The notes under the pieces: model-generated
The model's database searches: none
Told to the model about the DNA's origin: nothing
Seen by the model: only the letters and a program-made list of their open reading frames with translations
Position numbers and translations under genes: made by a program
Shown: one piece after another, positions 15,037 to 32,312 of the stretch
How positions within the stretch are numbered: position 1 is the first letter of the stretch
How the letters are laid out: every line of letters starts with the position of its first letter
Source: a virus
Length of the DNA stretch: 40,729 nt
Virus record (IMG/VR): IMGVR_UViG_3300020202_000147
Coordinates: 1 to 40,729 of that record
Strand: one strand, 5' to 3'

Positions 15037-16431
15037 TTAAGTTATGGTTGCTGTTCTGCGTCTTGCTGCAGGAGCGGCACCACCTTCTGACGGTCTTAAT
15101 GCCACCTGATAACCGGCTGTGTCATCAGAAAGTGTCCAGGTAATCGTTTGATTTCCAGTGGCTCCTGCCGGAGCGATTTCCTTGTCAAATATGATCAAAT
15201 CACGATTTGCTGTATTGATCACTCGCTGGGTGTAGCCGTTACCTGGCCCAGCCGAAAGTGCAGAAGTCGAAGAGTCCACCGTCCCCATCACAAGACTAAA
15301 AGCGCCATCAGTCGCTGTTGTAAGAGAATCGCAATCAGAAACGCTGGAAGGGTCAACGTTGAAATTGTAAGTGGATGTTGTGTCCTCAACGGTTGTTGTG
15401 TTGACACCTGTATAGGTTGCTATAACAACTCCCCAAGCTCCTGAGCTGTTTGAAGTCCAAGCGTATGATGCTGGCTCTGAGCCGCCAGCAACTCGGTAAG
15501 CTACAAGCCCAACAAACACACCTGTTTCATTACGAAGTGAACCGATTGTGGTAAATGAGTTCGCGCCGTTGTTGTCAACTATTGAAGTGGCCGGATTGTT
15601 TGCGTAGACAAACGCAATCACGACATCACCAGATGTAACACCGGTAGGTTTTGTAATGCTGATTGCTGTTCCAGAGCTGCCTGTGGCGTTGCCTGTTCCG
15701 CTTGCCCTAACAGTAATCAGTGCTTTTTGAAACGTTGCCATCGTGGCACCGCTACGGGATACACCGTCCCCAGACCAAGTTGCAGTAACTGATGGAGTGC
15801 TCGTTGATGTAAGAACCCTAATAGCCGTACCGACAGCCTTGTAAGAGGCAGTTCCGGAGCCTTGTGTTTCATTCTGGATATTCGTAAACGAGTTATTGAC
15901 GCTAGAGATCGTGTCAGTATCACCACCGCCACCTGTAACACGATATCCCCACGCAGCGACAACCAATTCGTTGTTTTTGCTTGTTGTACCACTAGCGGTT
16001 ACCGCTTGTGTTGTAACTGTGTTTGTGTATGCGGTGGTGCCAGTCTTGTCCAGTGGGGATGGCCGCCAGGGCCCTTCGAATTCCCGGATTATTGTGGCGT
16101 GTTGATCAGCGGTATTCTGAGTAAAACCCCAAGTCGTTCCGTCTGCAGCCTGAACAACCCGATATCCGATGGCAGTTGAATCGGAGTTGGTTGTATCAGC
16201 GTTTTCAACCGCCTCTAGAAGCGTTCCGGCTACTACGAGATCAGTGTCGTCACCGGCAAAGCATGTTACTACGATCAAATTTCCAGCGGTTGGCGATCCA
16301 GCGAATGTCGCATTGACATTTGAACTACTAGGAGAATCGTTAACAGCTTCCTGAACAATATCCCCGAACGCCGCAAATGCAGTCTTATGCAGGCTCAGAA
16401 ACAGGATCAACAATAATAGGAGTTTCTTCAT
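15037..16431 (-). CDS. Secreted beta-rich fibre/adhesin-like protein with duplicated domain
   Basis: The 464-residue protein begins with a signal peptide, MKKLLLLLILFLSLHKTAFA. Two homologous beta-sandwich domains follow, about 22-235 and 237-450. Each has the order SPTAGNLIVV or GVTSGDVVIA, then GYRVVQAADGTTW or AYRVAGGSEPASY, then a FEG or YTG segment. The composition is Thr/Ser/Gly-rich with few charges, like exported adhesins and phage fibre knobs. It lies at the end of the tail module. It could be a receptor-binding component or a host-surface protein made by the phage. Confidence 0.65.
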   Translation of the reverse strand: MKKLLLLLILFLSLHKTAFAAFGDIVQEAVNDSPSSSNVNATFAGSPTAGNLIVVTCFAGDDTDLVVAGTLLEAVENADTTNSDSTAIGYRVVQAADGTTWGFTQNTADQHATIIREFEGPWRPSPLDKTGTTAYTNTVTTQAVTASGTTSKNNELVVAAWGYRVTGGGGDTDTISSVNNSFTNIQNETQGSGTASYKAVGTAIRVLTSTSTPSVTATWSGDGVSRSGATMATFQKALITVRASGTGNATGSSGTAISITKPTGVTSGDVVIAFVYANNPATSIVDNNGANSFTTIGSLRNETGVFVGLVAYRVAGGSEPASYAWTSNSSGAWGVVIATYTGVNTTTVEDTTSTYNFNVDPSSVSDCDSLTTATDGAFSLVMGTVDSSTSALSAGPGNGYTQRVINTANRDLIIFDKEIAPAGATGNQTITWTLSDDTAGYQVALRPSEGGAAPAARRRTATIT

Positions 16432-16885
16432 AGTCCCTTATAAAATTGCTTGGTTTGTCCCCGTAGGAAAACGCCCTAGCAGCAGCGTTAGCAATTGCGA
16501 AACTAGGTTCAATCTCTATAGCTTTACCATTCGCATCCCGGTACACATTTGGACATTCGATGCGCTCACTACGAATCCTTTCGTAAGTGTTGTCACCAAT
16601 CTCCACCTCGCCGGAATCCTCCAGTTCTTTTTGTCGTTCCGGATCACGAGTAATAAGTAAGACGTATTTTCGTTCGAGATAGCAGGAGGTTCCGTCGTCA
16701 GTTAGTTTCCAGCCTTTGGCAGAAAGCTCCTCAAGCACCGGATTAAGCGACTCTTTGCTTGAAGCGTCAGCGGATGGAAAATAGCTTTCTATGTTCTCAG
16801 AAATCTCGTTAGTAGCTTCAAGTGTTTCGTCAGCAGACGCGGCAGGAGAAATCAACAAAAGAAGGATAAGAATTAATCGTCCCAT
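16385..16885 (-). CDS. Secreted hypothetical protein
   Basis: ATG 16885 overlaps the end of the large fibre gene. MGRLILILLLLISPAASA is a signal peptide. The mature protein (about 148 residues) is acidic, with an alpha/beta central part (KGWKLTDDGTSCYLERKYVL), two Cys that may form a disulfide, and a C-terminal helical part. It overlaps the next gene by 47 nt. No family recognised. The flanking fibre genes suggest a periplasmic partner or chaperone, which is inference. Confidence 0.6.
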   Translation of the reverse strand: MGRLILILLLLISPAASADETLEATNEISENIESYFPSADASSKESLNPVLEELSAKGWKLTDDGTSCYLERKYVLLITRDPERQKELEDSGEVEIGDNTYERIRSERIECPNVYRDANGKAIEIEPSFAIANAAARAFSYGDKPSNFIRDYEETPIIVDPVSEPA

Positions 16886-19074
16886 GTACCCGTCCAGCAA
16901 ACGGAAAACCAAGTGGGGGTTCCGGAGACTGATGCGATATCCACATCAACACGATCTCCGGCAGCGATAGTTGCATCTCCGTCCAATGAAGTGTCTGTGT
17001 CTGGTGTCGAGATGCAGGCGAGATCAACAGAGTCCATATCAGCTGCAGTCCCGTCATCAACCTGCAACATCATATTGACTGTCTGATCTGACTCACACCA
17101 AAGTTTGGTTACTGTAAACCCGTTTGCCGTATCATTCACCCAAACGCTTTTATCATCGGTAGAAGCTGTCGGATCAACGGTGCGGTAGCATTTGGTATCT
17201 GTGTAAGTCTCGGCATCAGCCGCAACGTCGTTTGTTGAAAGCGTGAGACTTCTGCCAGCAGTTAGGGCTGTTTTACTAACAGAAATTGCCGCTGATGAGT
17301 TAATGTCTGCGTTCGTGATCGAATCGTCGGCGATTTCCCCACCCGTACCACCATCCACCGCACCGGCGGCGATTTCGTCGTCTTGAATGCCCAGGGCCTT
17401 AACAGAAACACCGCCGAAAGCTCCGACAGTAAAATTAGTGGTGTCAAACGAAGCAATGCCTGGTGTTGTCACAGTGGCAATGTCAGCAGAAACGATGGCT
17501 TTCCCTGCCACCGCACTTGATGCTTTTAATCCGGTGGTAAAATCAACCGTATCTGCGGAAACTACCTGAACACCGTCTTCTGACACGTTAATCGATCCGC
17601 CACCGGCAGAGGTTTGATCGGTGTAAGTGCAGTCAATTTCCGTGTTGGCTGAATCATAAGTACAAATTTTTGTGTCAGTTAACGTTCCTAAATCTGTGTT
17701 TTCAACCGCGCTCGCGCTATCTACTGTAATGTTGTTCGGAACCTGGGCATCCGTAACCGATCCTTGCAAGGCATCGAGATCGAGCACGCTTTCTAGTTCA
17801 GTCTCAACAGCCGCCTCGTCAAGATCCACAGATCCAAGCCCCGTACCGTCCACATCGCCTACGATATCGAGTGTGGACTCAAGTGTGGACTCGCCAGTTG
17901 CGTCAACCGCGTCGAGGCCATTAATCGTTCCAGTACCAGTAAGAGAGAGGGTTGGAGCAGATAGCGTTGTGGTTGTAAATGTTCCGGTGTTATCAAGGGA
18001 TGCAACGTCCGTAATCGCACCTCCAGCACGCACTCCAAATCCGATTGTTGAGGTGCTATTGGTTCCATTCATCGCGTTCCAGTATCCTGAGATCCTAAGA
18101 GCGCTTCTTCTCGTTCCGGCTTCATCTTCTGCGTCTAAAATAATCCCGGCTCCGAACCCTGCGGCAACGGTGCCTGTGGACATATGAACGTAACGGAGGA
18201 CTGACGTAATGGAATTTGTTGCAGAATCTTCAATTTCAGCCTGGAACTTTGAAAGCGGAGAAGTACAACCAACACAAAGTCTGTCGTTTGTGTCGTCCCA
18301 GAAAAGATTGGCGTTATCCTGCGTAATCAGACCAGAGGTTGTGACGTAAGGAATTGAACCAAGTGTCAGGTCAGATAATTTAAGTCCGGAGAGTGTCGGC
18401 CCGGTGCCGAACACGGCCAACCCGGTTCCCGTTTCATCCGAAAGCGCTGCAGCTAGACCTGCGGAGTTGGAAAGGTCTTCTTCGTAATCAGTGCACGACT
18501 CCACCGCGCCAGAAGCATCCACGCCAAGCGGAGCATTGCCAGCGGCACAATTTGCGCCATTCGCTGCTAAAGCCGTTGCTGTAGTCGCTGCACCGCCCTC
18601 AGATGCACTTCCGGCGTAGTTTCCCGTAGTCTCAGTGCCGAGCGTCACACCATCGTCTTTGATAGAAACAGTCCCACCGGCGGTAACGCCGAAATTATTA
18701 GAATCAAAAGATGCAATGCCTGGGGTTGTGGTGGTTGCAAAATCAGTTGAGACAACCGCCTTCCCTGACGCTGACGTGGTAACCGTGAGACCACTGGTAA
18801 AATTAATCGTGTCCGCACTGGTAACATGAACGCCGTCATTAGAGACCCGAACCGTCCCACCGCTCCCACCGGCCGCCGTATCATCATCCTGGCACGTCCA
18901 CACACCCGAGCCTTGAGATTTAAGGACTTTCCCAGACGCGCAGTTAATGGTTATGTCAGACTCCGACTCCGCACCGACATAATCCGGTTTGCTTGTGAAC
19001 GGATTAAATTTCTTCGCTGCATAGACATTGGAACACAGAGCCAAAAACAAAAGAACAAGAAACGCTTTTTTCAT
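16873..19074 (-). CDS. Large signal-peptide tail-fibre-like protein
   Basis: The 733-residue protein begins MKKAFLVLLFLALCSNVYA, with cleavage before AKKFNPFTSKPDYVG, a motif I have seen at the start of many environmental phage fibres. It is Ser/Thr/Gly/Asp-rich and repetitive. A unit of about 70 residues (GTVRVSNDGVHV...TPGIASFD) at 73-142 recurs at about 489-560 (INVSEDGVQV...TPGIASFD). Asp-rich passages such as TLDIVGDVDGTGLGSVDLDE resemble fibre shaft repeats. The C-terminal 110 residues form a Cys-containing beta domain like that of the 28.4-kb fibre. Probable receptor-binding fibre, unusual in having a Sec signal. Confidence 0.7.
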   Translation of the reverse strand: MKKAFLVLLFLALCSNVYAAKKFNPFTSKPDYVGAESESDITINCASGKVLKSQGSGVWTCQDDDTAAGGSGGTVRVSNDGVHVTSADTINFTSGLTVTTSASGKAVVSTDFATTTTPGIASFDSNNFGVTAGGTVSIKDDGVTLGTETTGNYAGSASEGGAATTATALAANGANCAAGNAPLGVDASGAVESCTDYEEDLSNSAGLAAALSDETGTGLAVFGTGPTLSGLKLSDLTLGSIPYVTTSGLITQDNANLFWDDTNDRLCVGCTSPLSKFQAEIEDSATNSITSVLRYVHMSTGTVAAGFGAGIILDAEDEAGTRRSALRISGYWNAMNGTNSTSTIGFGVRAGGAITDVASLDNTGTFTTTTLSAPTLSLTGTGTINGLDAVDATGESTLESTLDIVGDVDGTGLGSVDLDEAAVETELESVLDLDALQGSVTDAQVPNNITVDSASAVENTDLGTLTDTKICTYDSANTEIDCTYTDQTSAGGGSINVSEDGVQVVSADTVDFTTGLKASSAVAGKAIVSADIATVTTPGIASFDTTNFTVGAFGGVSVKALGIQDDEIAAGAVDGGTGGEIADDSITNADINSSAAISVSKTALTAGRSLTLSTNDVAADAETYTDTKCYRTVDPTASTDDKSVWVNDTANGFTVTKLWCESDQTVNMMLQVDDGTAADMDSVDLACISTPDTDTSLDGDATIAAGDRVDVDIASVSGTPTWFSVCWTGTWDD

Positions 19075-19325
19075 CAGAAGACCTTGTGGTAATAGTCGAA
19101 ACTTAAACTTGCGCGGTTAGTCCAATTGGTCTCGTAAGTACCCGGATTGCCTTTGGCGTATTGGTAAGTATCCGCACCGGCAGAAACGGTTTCTTTTAGG
19201 ATGTACCAAGACCCGTCGGCCCTGACATACCCGTAATAATTTGGAGAGGCGTCATCGTCCTTGTCGGCAATCACATACCCCGAGAGCGTGTGATCGAGCG
19301 TATAAACGTAATTCGAGTTCCCCAT
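19074..19325 (-). CDS. Small beta-rich tail-associated protein
   Basis: The 83-residue protein (YVYTLDHTLSGYVIADKDDD; YYGYVRADGSWYILKE) is Tyr/Asp-rich and beta-like. Similar short proteins sit beside phage tail fibres and can be structural adaptors. The ATG (19325) abuts the stop of the coiled-coil gene. Function inferred from position only. Confidence 0.55.
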   Translation of the reverse strand: MGNSNYVYTLDHTLSGYVIADKDDDASPNYYGYVRADGSWYILKETVSAGADTYQYAKGNPGTYETNWTNRASLSFDYYHKVF

Positions 19326-19768: not shown

Positions 19769-19791
19769 CGTTTTTCTCCTTTAAAGTAAAA

Positions 19792-19846: not shown

Positions 19847-19865
19847 AAAACTTAGTTAAATTGAG

Positions 19866-21572
19866 TTATTCTTGGGTTAAAAATCTCCTACCTTGCGCTA
19901 ACGCGTTGGCCATCGGCAAGCGTTTTATAGCATCACTTTTACCGGCCTTTCCGGCTGCGTACAGAGTGCGAGCCGTAATGCCCTTACCACCCTGATAAAG
20001 CTTCCTGGCAATAATGGGTATCCATAGCTTCGGGTTAATGACAGCGCCAGCCGATAAGCCTGAATCAACTATGTCTAATAGATTATTCCTGCTGGCTACA
20101 CTAGCCCTACCCTTTGCGACGCTGGCAACGTCGATCAGTTTTGATATCTTTCGATTTTTTTCTCCGATCTCGGGAACAGCTTGCCCAAGAGAACGTCTTA
20201 ATCCTCCAGTATATTCCTGACGGGTCATGATCTCTGGCGATGTTGTTGAAGAATCGTAAGGCGCGGCTTTTTTTGTTTTCATTAAAGCGTCTTGATCTCT
20301 TCGCAGACGCAAAACCTCTTTCGCGCTGAACTCTTTTGGCCTTTCACCGACCTTTATTGTTTCTTTCCGAGAAATGCCCTTTATCTCCGGTCTTAGCTCA
20401 AATTCTTCCTTTGGGCTAATTGAAACAATTTTTCTTGGCCGAACTCCGGCGCCGCCCGGAACATTCATTGCAACGATGTCTTCAGGGTTTTCGACAAATG
20501 TTTTGTCGGTAAGAATTTCTCTTAACGGATCTGATTTTTGATACTTACCGCTCTTTGTGTTTTTAACAGATTGATATTTTGTTCTATCTTGAAACTGCTT
20601 TAAAGGACCCTTCATGTCTTTTGAAAATACTTCTGTGATCTGTGGCTTTACAGACTTACCGGCAGGCCCCATCACAAATTGTGAAGTTTCTACGTTTTCA
20701 AAAACAGGCTCGGTTAACCTTTCTCCGCGAACGATATCATTTTTAACAGCCATAACTTTTTCCGCTGCTGGAGTGTCGCCACGCCTTTTGTACCACTTAG
20801 TTAAAGCATCCATGCGCCTTAAAGCAGGGGAAACGGAAATTTTAGCGGTGGAATTTTCAGCAAGTCGATCAACCTCATCCATGTATGCATCGATGTTAGA
20901 CTGGGCTGCGCGACGCGTGCCTTCTGCGCTTCCTCGAAGAACCCCCTCATCGAGCGCCGTCTTTGCAATCTTTTCGCTTCGCTTGGCAAATCTGCCAGTT
21001 GGGTGCAGGATGTTTTGAGCTATCCTGGTTCCGGCCTGCTCCATTCCTGGAGCCAACCGCCTAGCTGCACCAGCAACACCTTTTCCGGCGCCATAACCTG
21101 CGAGCATTTCCGTTCCAAGTCCGATTAGTTGACCAGTGCTAGAAACCGGTCTCGGAGCAACTGGAAATCCGACTGCGGTTTCTGGGGTAGCCAACGGTGT
21201 TTGAAGTATTGATTTATAAGCCGCTGCCGGACCGCCTCTTGCAAACTCTTTAAAGTGTCTTCCTGGATTTTTAGCTGCCTCAAATCCGCGCTCAAGGCTT
21301 TCACCTGGATATCCAGAAATAATCTTTGAAATAGGCTCCCGGCCAATGTCTGTTAAGCCTTGAGTAACCCCATGTGCTGCAGAAGCGACAATTCCAGGAA
21401 CATCTTCTTTAACCGGCCAGTATGGGGTTTTGGGTTCGGCGGCAGTCTTACCGTCGCCAGCTTTTGGCCTTGTTGCCTGAAACAAATCATCTAAAGACGG
21501 TTTTCCCTCAACTGGTGCCTTTGGTCTTGTTGCTAAGAATAGATCGTCTAAACTCGGTCGTTCGGCTGCCAT
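19866..21572 (-). CDS. Internal virion (ejection-type) protein with SLDDLF repeats
   Basis: The 568-residue protein starts with two copies of PSLDDLFxATRPKA (about residues 6-19 and 24-37). A long, basic, Ala/Gly/Lys-rich chain follows, with predicted amphipathic helices and a glycine-rich membrane-like segment at about 150-165 (IGLGTEMLAGYGAGKGVAGA). Size, composition and location between small internal proteins and fibres resemble podovirus ejection proteins, which are delivered with the DNA. The N-terminal motifs match ones in the scaffold and in the secreted plus-strand protein. Assignment is by composition and context. Confidence 0.65.
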   Translation of the reverse strand: MAAERPSLDDLFLATRPKAPVEGKPSLDDLFQATRPKAGDGKTAAEPKTPYWPVKEDVPGIVASAAHGVTQGLTDIGREPISKIISGYPGESLERGFEAAKNPGRHFKEFARGGPAAAYKSILQTPLATPETAVGFPVAPRPVSSTGQLIGLGTEMLAGYGAGKGVAGAARRLAPGMEQAGTRIAQNILHPTGRFAKRSEKIAKTALDEGVLRGSAEGTRRAAQSNIDAYMDEVDRLAENSTAKISVSPALRRMDALTKWYKRRGDTPAAEKVMAVKNDIVRGERLTEPVFENVETSQFVMGPAGKSVKPQITEVFSKDMKGPLKQFQDRTKYQSVKNTKSGKYQKSDPLREILTDKTFVENPEDIVAMNVPGGAGVRPRKIVSISPKEEFELRPEIKGISRKETIKVGERPKEFSAKEVLRLRRDQDALMKTKKAAPYDSSTTSPEIMTRQEYTGGLRRSLGQAVPEIGEKNRKISKLIDVASVAKGRASVASRNNLLDIVDSGLSAGAVINPKLWIPIIARKLYQGGKGITARTLYAAGKAGKSDAIKRLPMANALAQGRRFLTQE

Positions 21573-21599
21573 TAAGTTAGTCCTTTTGAGGTCGATAAT

Positions 21600-22018: not shown

Positions 22019-22438
22019 ATGAAAACGTTTCTGATTTTAATTACGCTATTTTGCATAACAAGCAATAGCTTCGCACAATCTGATTTTGCCGAGGCTACTG
22101 GCGAAATGGCTGATCGTGCGATGCGTTTGAGACAGATAGAACTTCAAGAGCAGCAAATGATGAACAACGCCAGACTTGCCCAGATGCAACAAATAGCGCA
22201 AATCAATGAGCAAGAGGCACAAGCGCAAATAGATGCTCAACAAAGAGCTAACACAATGGCGTTTCTTGATGCTCATCCAGATATTGTTTTCCGCTCTCCA
22301 GAATATAATCAAATCGCAGATCTTGTTGAGCTCGGATATGATCCTGAAGACGCTTACAAAATCGTCGTTAATAGAAGATCCCAAAAAAAGCCTTCTCTGG
22401 ACGAAATATGGGAACAAACACATCCAACTATTTCTTAG
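22019..22438 (+). CDS. Plus-strand secreted protein with virion-protein motifs
   Basis: ATG 22019 has a perfect GGAGG site 5 nt upstream. The 139-residue protein has a signal peptide MKTFLILITLFCITSNSFA. Its mature start SDFAEATGEMADRAMRLRQIE resembles the N-terminus of the convergent gene (SFADVTGDLANRAFQLRQLR). A Gln-rich coiled coil follows (MQQIAQINEQEAQAQIDAQQ). It ends KKPSLDEIWEQTHP, like the PSLDDLFxATRP repeats of the internal virion protein. It looks like a chimaera of phage morphogenesis segments behind a signal peptide. Its 3-prime end overlaps the convergent gene by 11 nt. Confidence 0.7.
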   Translation: MKTFLILITLFCITSNSFAQSDFAEATGEMADRAMRLRQIELQEQQMMNNARLAQMQQIAQINEQEAQAQIDAQQRANTMAFLDAHPDIVFRSPEYNQIADLVELGYDPEDAYKIVVNRRSQKKPSLDEIWEQTHPTIS

Positions 22439-23390
22439 ATTCAAGGTATTGCATAATGGTAGCATCATCTGCCCCATGCGCCTTAGCTGCTGAATAAAAA
22501 GCCTCTTCACCAATAGCCCATTCGGGAACATTAGCGCTTTGACGTTGCTCCTGTTTGTACCCTTCACGGCCTCGCGTTCGAACATTTCTCCTGTAAGCGT
22601 CATAAAAACTTTCTAACTCTTCTAGCGCCGGGTATAAAGCTTCTGGGTTGCTAGTAAAGCCTCCCAAGTAATCATTGGCTAGACGCTCGTATTCTTCAGG
22701 CCGCGTCGTTACGCCTGATTGCACAAGTAGCTTTGCCGCGATAGCTCCACCAAGCCACCGCCTTAAATTTTGAGCTTCAGCGCTAAGTGGCAGCTTTTTT
22801 CCCATAAAGCCTTTTTGCTCAAACGCAAGATCGCGTCTAAAAGATTTTGACGTTCCGTCAGGAAAAAGAGTCTGTCTCGCTTTTGGAATATTAATAAGCG
22901 CCTCTTCAGCAAGCGTGTCTTTTCCAGATTCACTGGTCGGAACACCTTTAGCCTCCTGCTTGATCCGTTCAATCTCGGCCAAGCTCTTTGTATCTACATA
23001 TTCCTTCGGCATTCCATAGGCGTCATATTTCGTAGTTAGAGAATTATCCGGCGGCTTCCCGGACTGATTTTTCATTCGGTTCACTTTTGCTTCAGCCAGA
23101 TCTGCTTGAGCTAATGAGCGCCTAGTATCAGCCTGGCTTTTTTGATAAGTTTGGCTGAGGGATGGATCGTAATCAACCGAAAGAGTTCTTTGGGTTTCGC
23201 CGGGTAAAAGTCCGAACAATCTTCTAGGACCGTGCGTTTCTTGAGGGGTTATTGTTACACCTTTTGTTTTCAGCTCTGCTTCTTTAAGTGTTCGGTCATA
23301 AAGATTCTGATCTTCCTGATTTCTTAATTGCCGAAGTTGAAATGCCCTATTAGCTAAATCTCCGGTTACATCCGCAAATGATCTTCCCAT
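22428..23390 (-). CDS. Putative internal virion protein
   Basis: The 320-residue hydrophilic helical protein begins MGRSFADVTGDLANRAFQLR and has a coiled-coil N-terminal third. A Ser/Thr linker and a globular helical C-terminus follow (AQNLRRWLGGAIAAKLLVQS; NPEALYPALEELESFYDAYR). It is in line with the 266-residue glycine-zipper protein and the 568-residue protein, as for podovirus ejection proteins. It ends 11 nt inside the convergent plus-strand gene. No family recognised. Confidence 0.6.
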   Translation of the reverse strand: MGRSFADVTGDLANRAFQLRQLRNQEDQNLYDRTLKEAELKTKGVTITPQETHGPRRLFGLLPGETQRTLSVDYDPSLSQTYQKSQADTRRSLAQADLAEAKVNRMKNQSGKPPDNSLTTKYDAYGMPKEYVDTKSLAEIERIKQEAKGVPTSESGKDTLAEEALINIPKARQTLFPDGTSKSFRRDLAFEQKGFMGKKLPLSAEAQNLRRWLGGAIAAKLLVQSGVTTRPEEYERLANDYLGGFTSNPEALYPALEELESFYDAYRRNVRTRGREGYKQEQRQSANVPEWAIGEEAFYSAAKAHGADDATIMQYLESKK

Positions 23391-23394
23391 TATC

Positions 23395-24195
23395 TCACCT
23401 AGTAAAGTTTTTACTTGCGTTCATAAACGCAATGAAAGTTGGGTCTTTTTTCATGTTAGTACTATCGCTAAAGCTTTTTCCGGGAACGCTGATTCTTGGG
23501 TCGTAGGTGGGCGCTTGAGGCGTTTGATTTATCTTTGGGCTCTTTAGCGCTTGTTGTGTAAAGTAAGCATTTCCACCACCGGCTAATGCCGACGCCATTG
23601 GATCTTCATAAGCATCCGCCTCCTGCATCTGAAGACCGCGTCTTGAGAGTTCGTTTCCGCTCTCTGTCCTAAAAACATCCAGATCGAAGTTCGCTGCCTC
23701 GTTCTCCTGCCCGAAATTAAACGTATTAAGATCCTGCAGTCGCGCGGTGTTCGTGTCCCGTTCTTCATTCCGACGGGCTAAATCCTCAATATCAATTCTG
23801 TTGGTGTATAAGTTCTTTTCCCGACCGGCTTCTCTGAGTGCACGACCGATCACTTCGTCATAAGCCGCTGCGTTTCTGGAAAGCCCCATACCGGACAGAC
23901 GGTTGTTTAAATCAGCCTTCGTATCTTCAAGATCCCGGTCTTGCTCGATCTCGAAGTTCTTCAACAAAGCATCACGCCGGGCCGGGTCATAACCAACACC
24001 CTGACCCTGGGCGCGTTCCATCGTGATCTTGGTAATCAGGTCTTCGACAGGCCTTAAATGCTGAGTATGAGGAGGACGATACCCGGAGTATTTGGGCATC
24101 GCATCCGACACGCCCTTCATTTTTTTGTTCTTGGCTTTAGCGCCCATGTATCCGCCGAGCGCGCCGCCAGCAGCTAATAATGCAAGTCCGAGCAT
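23395..24195 (-). CDS. Putative internal virion/ejection protein with glycine zipper
   Basis: The 266-residue protein starts MLGLALLAAGGALGGYMGAK, a glycine-zipper membrane helix seen at the N-terminus of many podovirus internal proteins. A basic loop (KAKNKKMKG) and long helical, Arg/Asp/Asn-rich coiled regions follow, with a disordered C-terminus. The ATG has an AAAGGAGG site. Family resemblance suggests a P22 gp7-type ejection protein that helps DNA cross the envelope, but I see no direct homology. Confidence 0.65.
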   Translation of the reverse strand: MLGLALLAAGGALGGYMGAKAKNKKMKGVSDAMPKYSGYRPPHTQHLRPVEDLITKITMERAQGQGVGYDPARRDALLKNFEIEQDRDLEDTKADLNNRLSGMGLSRNAAAYDEVIGRALREAGREKNLYTNRIDIEDLARRNEERDTNTARLQDLNTFNFGQENEAANFDLDVFRTESGNELSRRGLQMQEADAYEDPMASALAGGGNAYFTQQALKSPKINQTPQAPTYDPRISVPGKSFSDSTNMKKDPTFIAFMNASKNFTR

Positions 24196-24208
24196 TTAAA
24201 ATCCTCCT

Positions 24209-24352
24209 TTAAGGCTCTAACGCAGCAACTCTATCTTCTAGAGCCTGCAGATATTCAAGTAGTAATGAAATTAAGATTTGTAGTTCTTCTAAACTCTGGT
24301 TCTTTGGGTCCCGGTTAATCCAGGGTTCAAGGTCGTTGATATCAACCGTCAT
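24209..24352 (-). CDS. 47-residue leucine-rich helical protein
   Basis: ATG 24352 overlaps the upstream TGA (ATGA). The product begins MTVDINDLEPWINRDPKNQS and ends with a leucine-rich helix (LEELQILISLLLEYLQALED). It may be a small coiled-coil structural or assembly factor. It precedes the AAAGGAGG site of the next gene by only a few bases. Confidence 0.55.
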   Translation of the reverse strand: MTVDINDLEPWINRDPKNQSLEELQILISLLLEYLQALEDRVAALEP

Positions 24353-24735
24353 TTAATCAGCCCAATCGCTTTCGCTTCTTCAAACTCAGCAGCCGTCAGC
24401 TTTAAAAGCTCGCGTTTTCTCTGTTCAACCTGCGCTTTTTTGGCCTCGTCTTTTTCTTTCTCCGAATTATCAATCTTTATTTTCTTCCCGAAAGGAACGT
24501 GATTAATCGTCCAATACTTCCGGTCAGTCCGGTCACTCGGAAGATCGCTTGGTTTAATTCGGTGGATCGGACGGCCCCAATACCCAAGCTGTTTCACAAC
24601 GTCTTCCAGCGTGTCTTTTGAGCCTTCCAAGTAATTAATCACTGAAACCCCACCATCTTCGCGCTGGACGGCGTAAAGTTCCGCAAATGCGTCATGAGAA
24701 ATAAAAAGAGAGATTAAAAGGATAAGAATAATCAT
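24349..24735 (-). CDS. Secreted hypothetical protein
   Basis: ATG 24735 overlaps the fibre stop (ATGA); the upstream extension is a basic out-of-frame shadow. MIILILLISLFISHDAFA is a signal peptide. The mature part (110 residues) has YAVQREDGGVSVINYLEGSK, a GYWGRPIHRIKPSDLP segment and a long charged C-terminal helix. Comparable protein ends follow fibre genes in other phages, where they serve as small chaperones or adaptors, but that comparison is loose. Confidence 0.6.
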   Translation of the reverse strand: MIILILLISLFISHDAFAELYAVQREDGGVSVINYLEGSKDTLEDVVKQLGYWGRPIHRIKPSDLPSDRTDRKYWTINHVPFGKKIKIDNSEKEKDEAKKAQVEQRKRELLKLTAAEFEEAKAIGLIK

Positions 24736-26102
24736 CGTCTGAAATCTCCAAATGCAACGGCGGTTACGACCGCGCTGTCTCTTGCGGTGCCGCCTTCGTC
24801 TTCTGTTGTTATTGATGAAGAGCCTGTTGCCTGCGCATAACACGTTGGAATATTCGGGCTTCCGGCGCTTGCAGAACCCCCGTTCGCAACGCAGGCGTAA
24901 TTCGCGGTATTAAAATCAGCGTCCCAGGTAACCGTATAATCCCCGGTTCCGTTGTCAGTAAGGGATGAAACGTTGTAAGACTGCCTAATGGCAATGGTTC
25001 CGGTGCCGTCAAAATTCACCCATCCGCCAATAATCTCTCTTTCCGTAAGAGCGTGTGCGGTCATCGTGTCTTGTGACGTGAAAAGGTTTGATGCGTCGGA
25101 GTTGATTGAACCGATAAGTCTGTAATTCGTAACCCCCGTCGGCGCAGACGAGCTTTCTGAGAATGTCACCGAGAAAGTCTTCACAGACTCCTGGTCTGCC
25201 ACGCCGTAGACGTAGTATCTCTTAGGCCCACCTGTCACCGATCCTGTGTCAAGTCCAGATCCGCCGGTTAACGGCGCATCCGTAGAAGTCGTGACCGTGA
25301 CATCTTGGCTTAAAATTCTATATTTCCCGTTGATGTAAAGAGCGCCGGGTGTAACCTTAAAAGACGTGTGCGCGTTCCACGAAACATACGCACCCTGAGC
25401 AAACCCCTGCGGCGTTCTTCCTGTCGGAGAGAACCGTCTGACCGGCTGCCCGTTCGTTAAGATGTCCTCAAGCGTAGCCTCGCTCGCAGCATCATTGATG
25501 GACTGGAACGGCCCCGTCGCACAGCTTGTCGATCTTAAATCTTGGATAGATACGATCTGCGTTGCATCCGTCGAGGCTCGGAACAGCTTCACGGAGTTGG
25601 CCGGTTGGGAAGGTTCTGACCCGTCAATCGTCTGTGTCTGGGAAGTGAACGATCCGCTTGTTAAAAGATAGTAATACGTCCATTTATTAGCCTCTAACGT
25701 CGCAGACGTGGAGGATGTCTTTTCGACTCTGTACCCGTCGGGGTACGCAACCCCGGCCGGGATGGTAAGCACAAGACTTGAACTGGTTGATGGTAATAGT
25801 CCTGAATAAACAAGATCACCGCAGCTTGCGCCTTCGGCGGTCCTAACCCTCGGATTGGCATCATCGGCCATGTTTTCTTCACCGATGGTGTCCGCCTTGA
25901 TCTGACCGGAGGACTGTGCGCTTCCGGCGTACACGCCGCGAATGTTGTTTACGCTATTCGCAAGCGTCGTGCGGTCCCGGTTCAACTGCCCGACAAGATC
26001 CGTCTGTCCGGCAACATAATTCGACTCAAGACTTGCGACATCGGCGAACGCCGGAGAGGTTATTAAGAATAAGAACAGGCTATATCGAAACAATTTTTGC
26101 AT
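24732..26102 (-). CDS. Secreted fibre/tail protein with knob domain
   Basis: ATG 26102 has GAAGGA upstream; the longer frame is inside the upstream gene. The signal peptide is MQKLFRYSLFLFLITSPAFA. The mature protein (about 436 residues) has an N-terminal coiled stretch (VAGQTDLVGQLNRDRTTLAN). Beta-rich repeats follow (SSSLVLTIPAGVAYPDGYRV; WNAHTSFKVTPGALYINGKY), then a C-terminal part YTVTWDADFNTANYACVANG ... VAFGDFRR, which I recognise as a phage fibre tip fold. Probable receptor-binding or auxiliary fibre, but with a Sec signal. Confidence 0.65.
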   Translation of the reverse strand: MQKLFRYSLFLFLITSPAFADVASLESNYVAGQTDLVGQLNRDRTTLANSVNNIRGVYAGSAQSSGQIKADTIGEENMADDANPRVRTAEGASCGDLVYSGLLPSTSSSLVLTIPAGVAYPDGYRVEKTSSTSATLEANKWTYYYLLTSGSFTSQTQTIDGSEPSQPANSVKLFRASTDATQIVSIQDLRSTSCATGPFQSINDAASEATLEDILTNGQPVRRFSPTGRTPQGFAQGAYVSWNAHTSFKVTPGALYINGKYRILSQDVTVTTSTDAPLTGGSGLDTGSVTGGPKRYYVYGVADQESVKTFSVTFSESSSAPTGVTNYRLIGSINSDASNLFTSQDTMTAHALTEREIIGGWVNFDGTGTIAIRQSYNVSSLTDNGTGDYTVTWDADFNTANYACVANGGSASAGSPNIPTCYAQATGSSSITTEDEGGTARDSAVVTAVAFGDFRR

Positions 26103-27660
26103 GTTTTTTCCTTCGGTCAGGTTCGACATCGTATCGGATAGATCGAAAAGACATTTTTTGATTAACGTTATAATTGCTGAGCCTAAACTGCACCGAGTCA
26201 GAAACAAGATCCACGAGGTGCATCTGATCCGTCGAAGACTCGAAGTCCGCCGGGTCACTATCAAGATCAATCGCTTCTAAAGGATAGTTCTCGCCTTCCA
26301 TGTACTGCTGGTAAGTCAGAAACGCTTCATTTTCGTAACCTTTCAAGACTTCAATATCAAACGACCACGATCCTTCGTTCGGAGTATCCACATACAGGTT
26401 CGAGTATTTCTTGAACCAGGACACGTCCAGCTTTGAGCCTTTGTATTCCTCTTCGGTTCTAAGGCCTGTCATTAAAACGGTGGGGATTAAACTTCCGTCA
26501 TCTTGCATCTCGGTTGAATACTGCGTCCTGTAATCCGCGACTTTAAAAACCCTTGCTCCGTCCGTGTGTTTCCTGGCGAATAAATGCTCACCTTTGAATT
26601 TCGTGGAACTCAGAGCCACTGACGCGCTAAATCCGTATGTGTGCGGCCCGTAGATACATGGCGAACCGGTGTCTTTGTTGACATTGATCGTGTCGAAATG
26701 AAGCGTGTAGTCGTTTTCCATCGACGCATCGATCGCAACCGAAAGCTTGTACAGATTGTCAACGTGCTCGGCGCAGGCGTCTTTTACTTTGGCAGGGTTA
26801 ATTCGTCTTAGGAATGGTTCAACATCGTAGGAAATAAGTCTTACTTTTGAACCGTCAAACGCATAAACCCCGATCTCGTTTTCCGGGGAATAACCGAGGA
26901 ACCAAAGTTCATCACCGACCTTTTTGACCGTCTGAGGAGCAACGCACCCACCCTGGAAACTCATCTGCTCCGGCCGCCAGTTTGACGGAGAACCGATGAT
27001 GTAATAAACCCAGATTGAGTTAGTTCTGAGGATCACCAAGCGCCCGTTCATGATCATCAACTTTTCAGGAACGTCACCGCGAGCCGGAGGCTGTGTGTCT
27101 ACGTTGATCGCCGCCCAACGGATCGGAACACCGCCCATGTCTGCCAGGTCATCTGTCCAAACCAGTTCGTTATTCGCCGTGATCCCGAAGGCTCGGTTGG
27201 TTTCTTTGGCGATAATGATGTCTTTTAGGAGAATTGACTCTCCGGAGGTATTTGTAATCAGTCGTTTCACCACCGATATCCCGTCATATTCAAAAAACCC
27301 GTCTTTCGGGTTCGCAAAGTACGTCTTATCCCGTAAATTCGCGGCCTGTTTAATGACGCCAGGCGTCAACCCGGTCAAAAGCTCCGTAAATTCATTCGCA
27401 CCAAAATTCTTTTTCATGATCTTGTCATCCACGCACACTAAGACATCTTGTTTGTCTTCGTTGTCGTTGTAATTGACAAAAATCCCGGTCGGAGCGTTCG
27501 TCCCGATCGTGTCCCCGTGATACCGGACTGATCCTTTGATCTGTTCAAAGACTTCCTGGTGCGTCATATCCACGTTCTGCATTAAAAAGAACTGGTTCTC
27601 GGGTGTGTCGTATGCCTTAAGTCTTAAATTAACGCCGCCTTTCGGTCTGATCTCTGGCAT
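26080..27660 (-). CDS. Tail nozzle/tubular-like protein
   Basis: The 526-residue protein (MPEIRPKGGVNLRLKAYDTP...) has repeated beta-strands with AxxRDKTYFANPKDGFFEYD, ELVWTDDLADMGGVP and NGRLVILRTNSIWVYYI segments. The repeat pattern suggests a beta-propeller, as in the gp10-type tail hub/nozzle of P22-like phages and T7 gp12. It has no signal peptide, unlike its neighbours, in keeping with assembly inside the cell. The assignment is from pattern and gene order. Confidence 0.65.
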   Translation of the reverse strand: MPEIRPKGGVNLRLKAYDTPENQFFLMQNVDMTHQEVFEQIKGSVRYHGDTIGTNAPTGIFVNYNDNEDKQDVLVCVDDKIMKKNFGANEFTELLTGLTPGVIKQAANLRDKTYFANPKDGFFEYDGISVVKRLITNTSGESILLKDIIIAKETNRAFGITANNELVWTDDLADMGGVPIRWAAINVDTQPPARGDVPEKLMIMNGRLVILRTNSIWVYYIIGSPSNWRPEQMSFQGGCVAPQTVKKVGDELWFLGYSPENEIGVYAFDGSKVRLISYDVEPFLRRINPAKVKDACAEHVDNLYKLSVAIDASMENDYTLHFDTINVNKDTGSPCIYGPHTYGFSASVALSSTKFKGEHLFARKHTDGARVFKVADYRTQYSTEMQDDGSLIPTVLMTGLRTEEEYKGSKLDVSWFKKYSNLYVDTPNEGSWSFDIEVLKGYENEAFLTYQQYMEGENYPLEAIDLDSDPADFESSTDQMHLVDLVSDSVQFRLSNYNVNQKMSFRSIRYDVEPDRRKKHAKIVSI

Positions 27661-28439
27661 TAGTTCCCACCGCCCATCAAAACCACTCTCCGGCGCACCG
27701 CATCACAATCCGTATACGCTGAGGACGGGCCGCCTGACGGTGGCACGATCGCAACACCTTTAACAATTCTGTATTCGTCTAACCAGCCATGCATCGGAAG
27801 CGCACCGGTGTCGCCACGACCTCCAATGCCGATAGCTCCGGTTTTGTTTGAGACAGCCGAAGCGTCTGTGGCTGTTGATCCGATCTGGGCACCGTCAACG
27901 TACATCTTGAAATCGTTCCCGGTTCTTAAAAGCGTAACGTGATACCAAACATCAATCGAAGGACTCCATGCATTTGAAACGGCAATTACGTTTGACCCGG
28001 CATCCTGAACTGTAAAATCAAGAGTTCCGGCTGCATTCCAAAAGAAAACGATTTCGTTCGTCGCATCCTGTCTTTGGTACAGAAACGACCGGCTGGCAGA
28101 CACGTCCGCGAAATACACCCAAAAATCGATCGTGAAGGCTCCGGTGTCGAAGTGAATGTCATCCGTGTCCGCAAACGATAACCAGTCCCCTGTACCGTCA
28201 AACTTTCCTGATGCGCCACCGAACTGACTCTTAGCGGTGTCTATCTGGGCATGCCCGTTCGCTGTGATCGACTTCGCGCCATTGTCCGAGTCTGTAAACG
28301 TCGTAGATTCATCCGTGCCGTCCATGTGCAGCATCAAGGACGTGTCGTCAACGTCATAACAAGACGTGGTGCTCGCAGCAAAACACAGCGCTGGCGAGAT
28401 AAGGATCAGAGTTAAAAGACTAAGTGTTTTATTCAGCAT
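27660..28439 (-). CDS. Secreted LamG/concanavalin-A-like lectin domain protein
   Basis: After a signal peptide (MLNKTLSLLTLILISPALCF), one jelly-roll LamG_3-type domain covers most of the 259 residues. Its hallmarks are DDTSLMLHMDGTDESTTFTD, KFDGTGDWLSFADTDD, FTIDFWVYF, WYHVTLLRTGNDFKMYVDG and GWLDEYRIVKG. This fold binds glycans and is common in phage tail fibres and adhesins. The start overlaps the fibre gene upstream by 11 nt. It probably helps bind host surface sugars. Confidence 0.75.
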   Translation of the reverse strand: MLNKTLSLLTLILISPALCFAASTTSCYDVDDTSLMLHMDGTDESTTFTDSDNGAKSITANGHAQIDTAKSQFGGASGKFDGTGDWLSFADTDDIHFDTGAFTIDFWVYFADVSASRSFLYQRQDATNEIVFFWNAAGTLDFTVQDAGSNVIAVSNAWSPSIDVWYHVTLLRTGNDFKMYVDGAQIGSTATDASAVSNKTGAIGIGGRGDTGALPMHGWLDEYRIVKGVAIVPPSGGPSSAYTDCDAVRRRVVLMGGGN

Positions 28440-29487
28440 CGATTGTGTAGTTGATTTTTACCTGTACGCCCGTAACCGTCCCCGTGACTGCCCCACCGTC
28501 GATTGCAATGTAATCTCCTGCATCGATCGTGGGATTTGTAAGGCTTCCGTCATCGGCTGCGCCGGTGTTACCGCAGGTAATTGTGGTGTCAACGGTTGAA
28601 CAGTTATCTCCGTTCCCGTCGCACTCCTGGACATCAATCACCGCAGACTCACCCGTTCCTGCCGGATCAACGATACAGGTAATACTTGTGATCGTGATCG
28701 GGTCAGCGACTTTATCCACATAAATCAAATCTGTGGCTGCCGGGCTTTCGTAGTAAATGGGATAGCTTTTCTTGTAGGTCACGACTCGTTTACTTGCACC
28801 GTAATACGCGAACTGGTCGTCTGATGTATCCACCGCAACTTCACCAGCTGCGTCAACGGTTGGCCCTGTTCCGCTTGGGATGGCTAATGACGATGTAGTA
28901 ATTGTGCTACCAGTGATCGTTGCGTTTCCGCTCACCCGGAGCGTGCTGTGAATGTGCGTTGTTACCGCAGACACCGCATCCGCTGAGGCGTTTACAAACA
29001 CCGCGTTTGCGCTCGAGCGAAGAACTCCGCCCGATTTAACGTGCACCGCATCAAACGATGCTTTTGACATCACGACGTTTCCGCTCGCGGTTAAGGTTGT
29101 GCTGACACTCACTGTGTTGGCAGATACAACGATCCCGTCTGGTAGAACGAACGTGTTGTCTGACGAAACGCCAAGTCTTACTCTCTGGCCGGAGGTTGTT
29201 AGCCAAGCCAAATACTGGTCGTTCCCAATATTCACGACATCTTTTGAGCTCACAACGTTCCGGGTGCTTAACACACCGCCGGAGTTAAACGACGCGTAAT
29301 TAACTGTTCCGCCAAGGATCGTGACGCCGTAAAGGTTCGTCAACGTGTCCGACTGAAGAACCTGCGTTGCTTCGAGCGAGGTTCTGACGATCGTTTCATT
29401 GGAAGAAACAACACCAGATCCGGTTTCTGTTTCCCACGCAAACGCGTTTGAGCTTAAAAGCAAAAGAATGGCTAGAATTTTCTTCAT
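28429..29487 (-). CDS. Secreted tail-fibre-like protein
   Basis: ATG 29487 overlaps the O-antigen-ligase-like stop (ATGA). The signal peptide is MKKILAILLLLSSNAFA. A Ser/Thr/Val-rich shaft with repeats follows (VVSANTVSVSTTLTASGNVV; AVSAVTTHIHSTLRVSGNAT). The C-terminal Cys-containing beta domain (ITITSITCIVDPAGTGESAV; DAGDYIAIDGGAVTGTVTGV) resembles the end of the 733-residue protein. A role as fibre or surface adhesin is likely. Export by Sec is the oddity. Confidence 0.65.
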   Translation of the reverse strand: MKKILAILLLLSSNAFAWETETGSGVVSSNETIVRTSLEATQVLQSDTLTNLYGVTILGGTVNYASFNSGGVLSTRNVVSSKDVVNIGNDQYLAWLTTSGQRVRLGVSSDNTFVLPDGIVVSANTVSVSTTLTASGNVVMSKASFDAVHVKSGGVLRSSANAVFVNASADAVSAVTTHIHSTLRVSGNATITGSTITTSSLAIPSGTGPTVDAAGEVAVDTSDDQFAYYGASKRVVTYKKSYPIYYESPAATDLIYVDKVADPITITSITCIVDPAGTGESAVIDVQECDGNGDNCSTVDTTITCGNTGAADDGSLTNPTIDAGDYIAIDGGAVTGTVTGVQVKINYTIDAE

Positions 29488-30593
29488 GAATAGTCCTCTT
29501 GTAATAAAGCCTCGACGCAAGCGAGCATGTAACAGGCAAGCCCGGCGAACCGCCCTAGATGAAATGGAAAATGGAATAAGGAAACGACCACTAACGGGAT
29601 AAGAATAGAAATCGCCATCCGGTGTCGATGAAACGTCAGATCAATCCGCGACCAGATGTTTTTAAAATAACAGTAAAGAAGAACAAGCCCGATAATCCCG
29701 GCCTCAAAGATCCACTGGATGAATTCGTTATGAGCCCAGGTCCAGGTCTGCGGCTGGCCGTTCTCCTGAAGTGTGGTAAATCCTGTGACCGCCCATGACC
29801 CGAGCCCCATCCCGAACCAGGGTTTTGACCCTGCGATATAGTTGATCCCTGCAAACCAGATATTGAAGCGTTTCGGGAACTGCCCGGACGGCATATCGAT
29901 TTTCAGGATGTAAAACACCCCGGCTGCGACCGCTGCGATGAACACAGCCCAGAATATTTTTTTGTTCTTGTGCCACAACAGAAACAGAAGCGAAGCGATC
30001 AAGGCCACCACCGCCGTTGACGACTTCCCGAACCACAACAAAGGAATGCAGATGATTGCGTTGAACGGATTGGCTGCGAAGATGAACGGGAACGCCATCG
30101 CCGCCAGACAACCGAGGTTTGCTTTCAGGCCCATAAACCCAACCTGATCCGGCTCCGGCATGTTCTGGGGCATGGAACTTTTGAAAATAGGATCAATGTT
30201 GTGGATCTGCAGAGCTAACCAGATCACGTTCAGGGCGCAAAATAATGCGAGTAAATTCCCGATCGCTTTAAAATCTAAATCAACTCTCTCGGCCAGTTCT
30301 TTGATCAGCGCAACGCCGAGGAAAAAGTTAAGAAGTTTTAGTCTTGAGTTCGGAGTGAAATGAAACAGAACTGTATTTAAAATGACGTAGGCTAAAATCA
30401 AGGCAAGGTAGAAGTTCGTGAACGGGCGCGTTCTCGGAACGAACAAACACACCGCCAAAAACCCCATAACCCCGTACTGGAAGAACATCTCCTGCGGTGC
30501 GTAGAAATGCAGACCAGGAATATAGAACGTTGTGCATCCGATCAGAAAGAATTTGAGGTAAGTATCGAAGGAGATCCTTTGGATGGCGCTCAA
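29484..30593 (-). CDS. O-antigen ligase/polymerase-like membrane protein (Wzy_C family)
   Basis: The 369-residue protein has about ten hydrophobic segments. It also has the long periplasmic loop typical of Wzy/WaaL, with WFGMGLGSWAVTG (about residue 260) and WAHNEFIQWIFEAGIIGLVL (about 287). The latter is the conserved H-N-x-x-x-Q-x-x-x-E-x-G-x-x-G-L signature of Wzy_C enzymes that ligate or polymerise undecaprenyl-linked O-antigen. Upstream and downstream genes are coupled by 4-nt overlaps, so it is a proper operon member between neck and fibre genes. It probably alters the host surface polysaccharide. Substrate is unknown. Confidence 0.85.
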   Translation of the reverse strand: MSAIQRISFDTYLKFFLIGCTTFYIPGLHFYAPQEMFFQYGVMGFLAVCLFVPRTRPFTNFYLALILAYVILNTVLFHFTPNSRLKLLNFFLGVALIKELAERVDLDFKAIGNLLALFCALNVIWLALQIHNIDPIFKSSMPQNMPEPDQVGFMGLKANLGCLAAMAFPFIFAANPFNAIICIPLLWFGKSSTAVVALIASLLFLLWHKNKKIFWAVFIAAVAAGVFYILKIDMPSGQFPKRFNIWFAGINYIAGSKPWFGMGLGSWAVTGFTTLQENGQPQTWTWAHNEFIQWIFEAGIIGLVLLYCYFKNIWSRIDLTFHRHRMAISILIPLVVVSLFHFPFHLGRFAGLACYMLACVEALLQEDYS

Positions 30594-31756
30594 AGTACGT
30601 CCTCGATTTTGTCATAGTAATACTGAGCGCCGTGTTCCGAGCTGTCACCGTCCGGAACCGTGTCCGTTAACGACGTATCTTCAGAGTCCTGCTCAAACTC
30701 ATCCTGCGCGTCTGCGATGTCATCAATAAGCCCCTGCGGCACGTCTTTCCCTGCCCACTCCAGAAGTCTTTTTTCAAGTTTGTAAGAGGCTAACCGGTGC
30801 CATTTCGTCGGGAGTAAAATTCGGTCTGAGTCGAGCCACAGGAACGGATGTTTCATGAAAAACCGGTATTTAAGGGTCTCGGCTCCGTCCGGTTTCGGCC
30901 ATAAAAGCACCGTCTGTCTTTCGATCTCTGTATCACCAGGTGCCAGGGTTCCGAGTGTCCGTGATCCGTCCTCTGTCTGGATCGTGATCTTTCCGCCGGT
31001 CTTGTCGGATTTTCCGATCGAGACAAGCGTGTTCACGGTCTTTAGCGTCACGACCTGGTTGCTGCCGTTTAATTCAACGTTCTCCGAGTCAATCTCACCG
31101 CCAATAAAGCCTTGAATATTGACCTGTATGCCAACATCACCAATTTCGTAGTCAACGTTGTCCCCTGACGCACCACGATATTTTTCCATTAGTTGAATGC
31201 GGCGCGGGCTTATGTATTTCCCGATCTTGTAAGTAAGCGAGTCGCCGGAGCGTTTAAGTCTCAACCCGACATCGTTAAGGTTAAAGATGTTGAAATTTGA
31301 GGTCACGATATCCGACCCGGCTTTAACGTTAATATTTGAGGTCGTCTTGGATGCGAGGGAGGAAAACACCTTGATCTTGGAAGCGGAGGTCAGCTGCGCG
31401 TCATATCCAACCATCTCGCCGAACGTGTAAATAAGCGGTTTTCCGGAGGTGGACTGCTGCAGCCGGATCTTTCGAAAAAACTCCTGCGGATTTTTATAAG
31501 TTAAATAATCAGGACGTGAAGATGGGCCTTGCAATGAATGCGGAACGAAATTATCAAAATGTTTGTTTAAGACGTACTCATCTGCCCCCGAGATCGTGTT
31601 GATCTGACCTCTTGACTGTCTGAAATCAGATTTAACCCGGTACCAGAGATCTTCAATGACGAAATTTCCTTCGCGCTTGGCAATATCTAAATGCCCAGCG
31701 TCGTCCGGAAGCTCGGCTTTGTTTAATGCATGTCTGACATATAACCCGAATAGCAT
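30590..31756 (-). CDS. Putative neck / head-tail connector protein
   Basis: The 388-residue protein follows a terminator and has AGGT before ATG 31756. Its segments GADEYVLNKHFDNFVPHSLQ, NPQEFFRKIRLQQ, and a late KWHRLASYKLEKRLLEWAGK resemble those of short-tailed phage neck proteins that follow the capsid gene. A Gly/Asp-rich beta stretch (KSDKTGGKITIQTEDGSRTL) lies in the middle. The C-terminus is acidic. Assignment is by position between capsid and tail genes plus a general likeness, not a firm family hit. Confidence 0.55.
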   Translation of the reverse strand: MLFGLYVRHALNKAELPDDAGHLDIAKREGNFVIEDLWYRVKSDFRQSRGQINTISGADEYVLNKHFDNFVPHSLQGPSSRPDYLTYKNPQEFFRKIRLQQSTSGKPLIYTFGEMVGYDAQLTSASKIKVFSSLASKTTSNINVKAGSDIVTSNFNIFNLNDVGLRLKRSGDSLTYKIGKYISPRRIQLMEKYRGASGDNVDYEIGDVGIQVNIQGFIGGEIDSENVELNGSNQVVTLKTVNTLVSIGKSDKTGGKITIQTEDGSRTLGTLAPGDTEIERQTVLLWPKPDGAETLKYRFFMKHPFLWLDSDRILLPTKWHRLASYKLEKRLLEWAGKDVPQGLIDDIADAQDEFEQDSEDTSLTDTVPDGDSSEHGAQYYYDKIEDVL

Positions 31757-31773
31757 TTAAACCTCGTAAGAAA

Positions 31774-31796
31774 GCCGGGGGCTGTGAACCCCCGGC
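31774..31796 (-). terminator. Rho-independent terminator after the capsid cluster
   Basis: Perfect arms GCCGGGGG/CCCCCGGC with a seven-base loop, then TTTCTT on the minus strand. It lies 7 nt beyond the stop of the secreted decoration-like gene and would reduce transcription into the neck gene, giving high capsid expression. Confidence 0.8.
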
Positions 31797-31802
31797 AATC
31801 CG

Positions 31803-32312
31803 TTAGACAATCGTGATATAAGCAAGCGATGTGTCTTCACCGTTACCAGAAGCAGCGGTGGTTTCGAGAGCGAAACCAAGCTGATTGATGGTGTTGGAAG
31901 TCACAAGCGAAGCATCACCTGACGTGCTGACGAACAGAGCATTACCAGAAGTAACTGTCTCTGTGGTCTTAATGCCGACATAGCCTTTGCCGCGAACAAT
32001 CGCCATTCCTGTATTTCCGGAGGCAATCGTTGTTTGAGCAACACCAGCGACACGCACACCATCTGCCGAAGCGGAAGAAACGCGAACCTGGAACGCGCCG
32101 TAATCTGCATCATGAGCGGTGTTGTTCACATCAAACACAAGCACCGTTCCCTGAGACACAAGCGTTGTTTCGTTCGAGGCTACGCGAACTGTCACCCAGC
32201 AATCATCCGACGAACCTTCCACGTTTCTGCCTTCCGCGCACTGAAGAGCAAATGCGTTAGAAGCAGAAACAAGGAGGATCGCAAACAAGAAAACTAAATG
32301 TTTAAGTTTCAT
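31803..32312 (-). CDS. Secreted decoration-like protein
   Basis: Located directly after the capsid gene with AAGGAGG before ATG 32312. The N-terminus MKLKHLVFLFAILLVSASNA followed by FA is a Sec signal, and the mature protein starts LQCAEGRNV. Repeated beta segments (VRVASNETTLVSQGTVLVFD; GVAQTTIASGNTGMAIVRGK; GYVGIKTTETVTSGNALFVS) resemble the beta-tulip DUF2190-type decoration proteins that stud HK97-fold capsids. The position is the standard one for a decoration protein. A signal peptide on such a protein is unexpected. It may instead coat the cell surface. Confidence 0.6.
   Translation of the reverse strand: MKLKHLVFLFAILLVSASNAFALQCAEGRNVEGSSDDCWVTVRVASNETTLVSQGTVLVFDVNNTAHDADYGAFQVRVSSASADGVRVAGVAQTTIASGNTGMAIVRGKGYVGIKTTETVTSGNALFVSTSGDASLVTSNTINQLGFALETTAASGNGEDTSLAYITIV

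Follow-up and report, generated by a model that had tools for sequence, protein, structure and literature searches.

Predicted Sec signals on cement-like and fibre-like proteins of a podovirus-like phage and a possible completion of its virions outside the inner membrane

The window analysed here, i.e., the whole 40.7 kb stretch of an IMG/VR virus record, harbors a minus-strand late operon of head and tail genes, and nine open reading frames (ORFs) with putative Sec signals were examined in this region. Several genes of the module lack such signals: those of the major capsid protein (32326..33345, minus strand; phrog_9953), an adaptor/neck-like protein (30590..31756, minus; called by position and by conservation in the related viruses L003 and L013), a nozzle/head-closure-like protein (26080..27660, minus; phrog_3287 and phrog_578) and two ejection-type internal proteins assigned by position (22428..23390 and 19866..21572, both minus). 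The second of these, the third ejection-type protein, carries N-terminal PSLDDLFxATRP repeats; it has S/L-x-D/E-I/L-F motifs (e.g., SISDIF, LDEIF, PSLDDLF), perhaps docking sites for a common partner, in common with a scaffold-like protein (33359-34399, minus). The product of 11718-12683 (minus) resembles, as judged by eye, a tyrosine recombinase (integrase), which makes a temperate lifestyle possible.

The nine ORFs had been singled out in a first-pass annotation as bearing Sec signals, and all nine are present at the starts claimed there, each with a hydrophobic stretch followed by a small-x-small motif. Cleavage is predicted directly after MKLKHLVFLFAILLVSASNAFA in the protein starting at 32312, MKKILAILLLLSSNAFA at 29487, MQKLFRYSLFLFLITSPAFA at 26102, MIILILLISLFISHDAFA at 24735, MKKAFLVLLFLALCSNVYA at 19074, MGRLILILLLLISPAASA at 16885, MKKLLLLLILFLSLHKTAFA at 16431 and MKTFLILITLFCITSNSFA at 22019 on the plus strand; for the protein starting at 28439, the signal MLNKTLSLLTLILISPALCFA is given as cut before AS, and the scorer places cleavage two residues further on. 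With a rule-based scorer calibrated on twelve known E. coli signal peptides, the nine reached 7.47-10.68 as compared with 7.13-10.30 for the E. coli set, i.e., all of them lie within or above the E. coli range, which bears out the signals as claimed. The n-, h- and c-regions and the signal peptidase I site expected of Sec substrates were recognizable throughout; the positive n-region, claimed for all nine, is present in the others but not in 24349-24735, which has no K or R there. The accompanying claim that the portal, capsid, scaffold, neck, nozzle and internal proteins are devoid of signals was borne out as well: most of the remaining head/tail genes score nothing, the highest value among them is 5.2 (23395-24195), and none passes the threshold.

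As a control, the same scoring was applied to P22, BUCT555, Mx9, HMO-2011, Octadecabacter DB virus 2 and three metagenomic phages. The threshold was reached by 10 of the 63 ORFs of the window vs. 4 of the 294 from the eight control phages (Fisher p = 9e-6). The tenth ORF of the window, 9848-10468 (score 7.1), was left out of the nine; among the four control hits, one is a clear membrane protein, the P22 Rz spanin, and none belongs to the virion modules of the eight phages. Overall, export of the nine proteins is strongly predicted, to the point of near certainty.

The signals recur in relatives. Scanning with the capsid protein retrieved L002, L003 and L004 (73-79% identical), and scanning with the protein encoded next to it (decoration protein, see below) additionally retrieved L011 and the more distant L013; L022 represents the same contig as L013, L059 the same contig as L022, and L014 lies on the L003 contig. 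A search for related phages with the same signals, as proposed in the first-pass annotation, recovered them in orthologues from L003, L013 and L022. Thus, 5/8 of the minus-strand exported proteins have an L003 orthologue, always with a signal, and three of these five are also found, signals included, in L013, while L022 adds an orthologue of the 16873-19074 protein and further exported proteins. By region, identity amounts to 25-64% in the signals and 43-92% over the first 60 mature residues, i.e., the signals persist despite divergence of their residues, and the chain after the cleavage site is mostly better conserved. Exceptions are the LamG protein described below, in which conservation is higher in the signal than at the mature start, and the decoration protein compared with L013, where both are equally conserved.

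This conservation also bears on the possibility that the signals reflect hydrophobic N-termini arisen by chance or starts that were mis-called. Shine-Dalgarno pairing is strong at 32312 (-11.7) and at 22019 on the plus strand (-9.3) and moderate (-4.8 to -6.4) at 29487, 26102, 24735, 16885 and 16431, but it is weak at 19074 (-3.3) and absent at 28439, a start that overlaps the end of the preceding gene, and the last two cases could be taken as wrong starts. Still, misreading is unlikely because the orthologues in the relatives retain the signals, and chance is opposed by the scores of all nine ORFs and their excess over the controls; on the conservation of the signals this explanation was rejected and is scarcely credible.

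The first exported protein of the late operon (31803..32312, minus; signal score 10.7) is encoded directly after the major capsid gene and shows similarity to Phage_cement_2 (PF09956), amounting to 21.7 bits in the window, below the curated cut-off of 24, and to 24.2 and 28.8 bits in L002 and L004; a match to this family was reported for neither L003 nor L013. Its AFA site and a Cys pair are conserved in six sequences. The predicted structure is poor (mean pLDDT 43), and a profile search against solved structures returned chance matches only. Judging by family resemblance and gene position, this protein looks like a relative of cement proteins and hence like a part of the virion.

Several other exported products of the operon resemble fibres. 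The protein encoded by 28429..29487 (minus; score 9.6) has a mature start conserved in L003: identity is 92% over the first 60 mature residues and 32% beyond them, so by sequence it is a conserved anchor running from the cleavage site on, followed by a variable distal part. It is followed by a LamG (concanavalin-like lectin) domain protein (27660..28439, minus; score 8.6; PF13385, E 1e-19), the Cys pair of which is retained in L003, and, past the nozzle gene, by a tail-fibre protein (24732..26102, minus; score 8.1; phrog_11355 tail fiber) with signal-bearing orthologues in L003 and L013. The C-terminal domain of the latter is common to tail fibres of HMO-2011, Octadecabacter DB virus 2 and others, and the modules of these two phages contain no signals. 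A small protein encoded after the fibre (24349..24735, minus; score 7.5) likewise has orthologues in L003 and L013, both with a signal. Towards the operon end, a protein without assigned family (16385..16885, minus; score 10.7) precedes a Ser/Thr-rich fibre-like one (15037..16431, minus; score 9.8; 26.6% Ser+Thr), and family searches gave no match for either. The proteins at 15037, 16385 and 24349 show no virion homology at all, which counts against assembly of the exported proteins into particles. The same can be said of the L003 operon end, which carries signal-less proteins where the window has exported ones.

Four signal-less proteins are encoded at the operon end in L014:10672-13703 (plus), where the window has three exported ones, suggesting that exported and non-exported sets may exchange. 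Two fibre-like, signal-bearing proteins were also seen in a distant virus with a capsid 22% identical (L016:10131-11180 and L010:19893-20966).

The most telling arrangement is that of the exported tail fibre encoded by 16873..19074 (minus; score 9.6), in which the anchor motif KFNPFT stands directly past the cleavage site, the mature N-terminus being AKKFNPFTSKPDYVG. The middle of this protein matches fibres such as L026:8267-9682, which is signal-less and matches many PHROG tail-fibre families. IMG/VR was scanned for DNA encoding KFNPFTxKLDY, which occurs in 37 stretches; in 32/37, many of them near-duplicates and hence not 32 independent cases, the K is residue 4 (Met-x-x-KFNPFT) and no signal is present. 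Four of the remaining five have signal-like N-termini, i.e., L059 (the relative of the window), L066, L068 and L050, and the fifth, L060, has merely two extra residues before the anchor. In the window, L066, L068 and L050, the predicted cleavage leaves two residues ahead of KFNPFT, and in L022 it leaves four; the L050 signal scores 5.98, under the threshold. Since the PHROG families of the capsid or portal proteins in L066, L068 and L050 differ from those of the window, roughly four phage types seem to have the anchor-after-signal arrangement. A similar anchor opens the annotated tail fibre of the cultured podovirus S-RIP1 (YP_007676445, beginning MGVKLNPFTGKLD), which ends in the fibre chaperone domain Peptidase_S74; for 16873-19074 there was no Pfam match, and so this domain was not detected. 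The anchor begins at index 2 of the mature window protein, which is its position in ordinary fibres after Met removal. The predicted removal of the signal is therefore one that regenerates the N-terminus used by ordinary, non-exported fibres. The unrelated virus L068 has three adjacent exported proteins (L068:2038-5251, minus), one of which contains a right-handed beta-helix domain and has 10 Cys in its chain.

The same survey informs the idea that the N-terminal segments stay uncleaved, holding virion parts at the inner face of the membrane during assembly. Hydrophobic segments could serve as such anchors, and two L066 proteins have anchor-like N-termini; nevertheless, clear small-x-small sites occur in all nine proteins, the AFA site is kept in the six decoration proteins, and the fibre anchor begins exactly past the predicted cleavage site, making permanent membrane attachment highly improbable.

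The composition of the mature chains was considered next to their predicted location. Cys residues number 2 in the protein at 31803, 4 at 28429, 2 at 27660, 4 at 24732, 0 at 24349, 0 at 22019, 12 at 16873, 2 at 16385 and 2 at 15037, and conserved pairs sit just past the cleavage site in the decoration protein (six sequences) and in 16873-19074. Against this, three exported proteins of L022 have odd counts; parity is a weak argument because even counts fail in some exported proteins of the relatives. The Cys pattern thus supports an oxidizing compartment, short of proof. Ser and Thr together make up 18.6-26.6% of 6/9 mature chains vs. 7.8-16.9% in cytoplasmic-type genes.

A membrane protein of the Wzy_C type (O-antigen ligase/polymerase/O-OTase superfamily) is encoded by 29484..30593 (minus; PF04932, E 6e-15) within the overlapping late structural operon, an unusual place for a glycan enzyme, and it is kept in L003 and L013. 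Its predicted structure is poor (mean pLDDT 49), and a profile search against solved structures gave no match. Members of this superfamily transfer lipid-linked glycans to lipid A, growing O-antigen or periplasmic proteins, and those that modify proteins are often encoded next to their targets (PMC3643930). PglL/PilO O-oligosaccharyltransferases similarly combine a Wzy_C enzyme with neighboring genes for exported Ser/Thr-rich proteins. Identity with PglL was nonetheless rejected: the protein has the Wzy_C domain, but PglL_A (PF15864) found no match in the window or the relatives, and the PglL_B residues seem, by eye, to be absent. An O-antigen polymerase or ligase is equally possible, and modification of the O-antigen, as carried out by the gtr genes of P22 or by the phage-acquired Wzy-beta (PMC4815439), would be the ordinary alternative role.

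The ninth exported protein (22019..22438, plus; score 8.7; strong ribosome site) stands apart. Its gene is reversed relative to the late operon and lies between minus-strand ejection-type genes. After the signal the protein resembles the N-terminus of the ejection-type protein 22428-23390 (z = 9.6, 0/500 shuffles), and near its end it resembles the PSLDDLFxATRP repeats of 19866-21572 (z = 5.6), so that it appears to be an exported mimic of ejection-protein N-termini. P22 has a reversed gene, sieA, directly after ejection gene 16; the ninth protein shares with SieA the reversed orientation beside ejection genes, but it has no reported SieA similarity and differs in resembling ejection-protein N-termini. 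It is a probable candidate for a superinfection-exclusion factor, functionally separate from the late-operon exported proteins, and it might act as a periplasmic decoy spoiling ejection by superinfecting relatives. A reversed small exported protein of 90 aa with two mature Cys (L014:9860-10132, minus) adjoins the third ejection-type gene of a relative.

The first-pass annotation had left two roles for the signals side by side: export to the host envelope, e.g., for exclusion, and assembly outside the inner membrane. The envelope role is the better reading for 22019-22438, and the Wzy_C gene points towards the cell surface. Extended to the whole set, it would make the exported proteins non-virion factors that mask or occupy receptors (preventing superinfection or the sticking of progeny to debris) or alter adhesion, and exported phage proteins of this kind exist, e.g., lambda Lom (PMC12309495). 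At the same time, it is hard to see what a cement-family protein encoded next to the capsid gene would do in the envelope, a fibre anchor with the N-terminus of ordinary fibres is left unexplained, and the genes sit inside the overlapping late operon; as a general account this role is possible, if rather unlikely. Assembly outside the inner membrane is the less apt reading for the ninth protein, but the cement relative, the fibre domains and the regenerated N-terminus argue for it in the late operon, and we lean towards the view that the coat and fibre proteins of this operon are exported, processed and added to particles there. A dual use, with part of the exported pool on particles and part coating the host envelope during infection, draws on the evidence for both, since fibres bind their receptors wherever they meet them; it is less parsimonious and appears improbable.

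On the preferred reading, i.e., completion of particles outside the inner membrane, the late operon would encode a cement/decoration protein and tail or lectin-domain fibres as Sec precursors. These would be exported by the host Sec system, relieved of their signals by signal peptidase I and folded outside the cytoplasm; disulfides could form there, and the Wzy_C membrane enzyme encoded by the phage might glycosylate these proteins. The signal-less capsid, portal, nozzle and ejection proteins would assemble in the cytoplasm as usual. As the inner membrane is breached by lysis proteins, the mature coat and fibre proteins accumulated outside it would become accessible to DNA-filled particles, which would be completed there. 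From the signals, their conservation, the homologies and the predicted cleavage, all read from sequence, we infer actual export, disulfides, particle attachment, lysis timing and glycosylation. The term "periplasm" presupposes a two-membrane host; in the search for a host, GTDB genomes yielded no protein related to the capsid or nozzle protein, and no tRNA turned up. Cultured phage records gave no near-DNA match to the window and no match for the decoration, 28429, 16873 or Wzy_C proteins.

If true, this would mean that receptor-binding parts can be folded, oxidized, perhaps glycosylated and attached in another compartment, with consequences for the way host recognition is established and for the site at which assembly finishes. 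It would also matter for annotation, since fibre genes with signal peptides may be taken for host genes. More tentatively, several unrelated lineages of tailed phages could complete their virions outside the cytoplasm with Sec-exported, processed, disulfide-bonded and phage-glycosylated fibres and cement proteins mounted at lysis, which would provide virions with oxidized or glycan-coated surfaces unattainable by cytoplasmic assembly; such a generalization is doubtful but conceivable. We know of no tailed phage that mounts fibres outside the cytoplasm. An incomplete search of the literature turned up no description of tailed-phage fibres or cement proteins with signal peptides, which is weak evidence of novelty, and cytoplasmic assembly is the general assumption for tailed phages (PMC9067925).

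Among known systems, Sec signals are also carried in tailed phages by lambda Lom and the Rz1-type spanins; these function in lysis or at the host envelope and are homologous neither to fibres nor to cement proteins. The window decoration protein shares with Phage_cement_2 proteins the domain similarity (in the window below the cut-off) and the position after the capsid gene, but differs in its signal peptide and in the Cys pair between the cleavage site and the domain. The KFNPFT-anchored fibres, e.g., that of S-RIP1, have the same or a closely related anchor at an equal distance from the mature N-terminus; these ordinary fibres are made without a signal peptide, whereas the window fibre has one and shows no detectable Peptidase_S74. 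A parallel in assembly is provided by inoviruses, whose coat proteins carry signal peptides: there, too, virion proteins with cleaved signals are added to the virion outside the cytoplasm. Inovirus assembly makes use of the host secretion machinery (PMC4823517). Membership of this group (filamentous particle, ssDNA, extrusion genes) was rejected, since the terminase, portal and capsid genes of the window are those of a tailed phage. In inoviruses the coat proteins reside in the inner membrane and virions leave the cell by extrusion, with no lysis, whereas the window represents a dsDNA podovirus-like phage with signal-less capsid, portal and ejection proteins.
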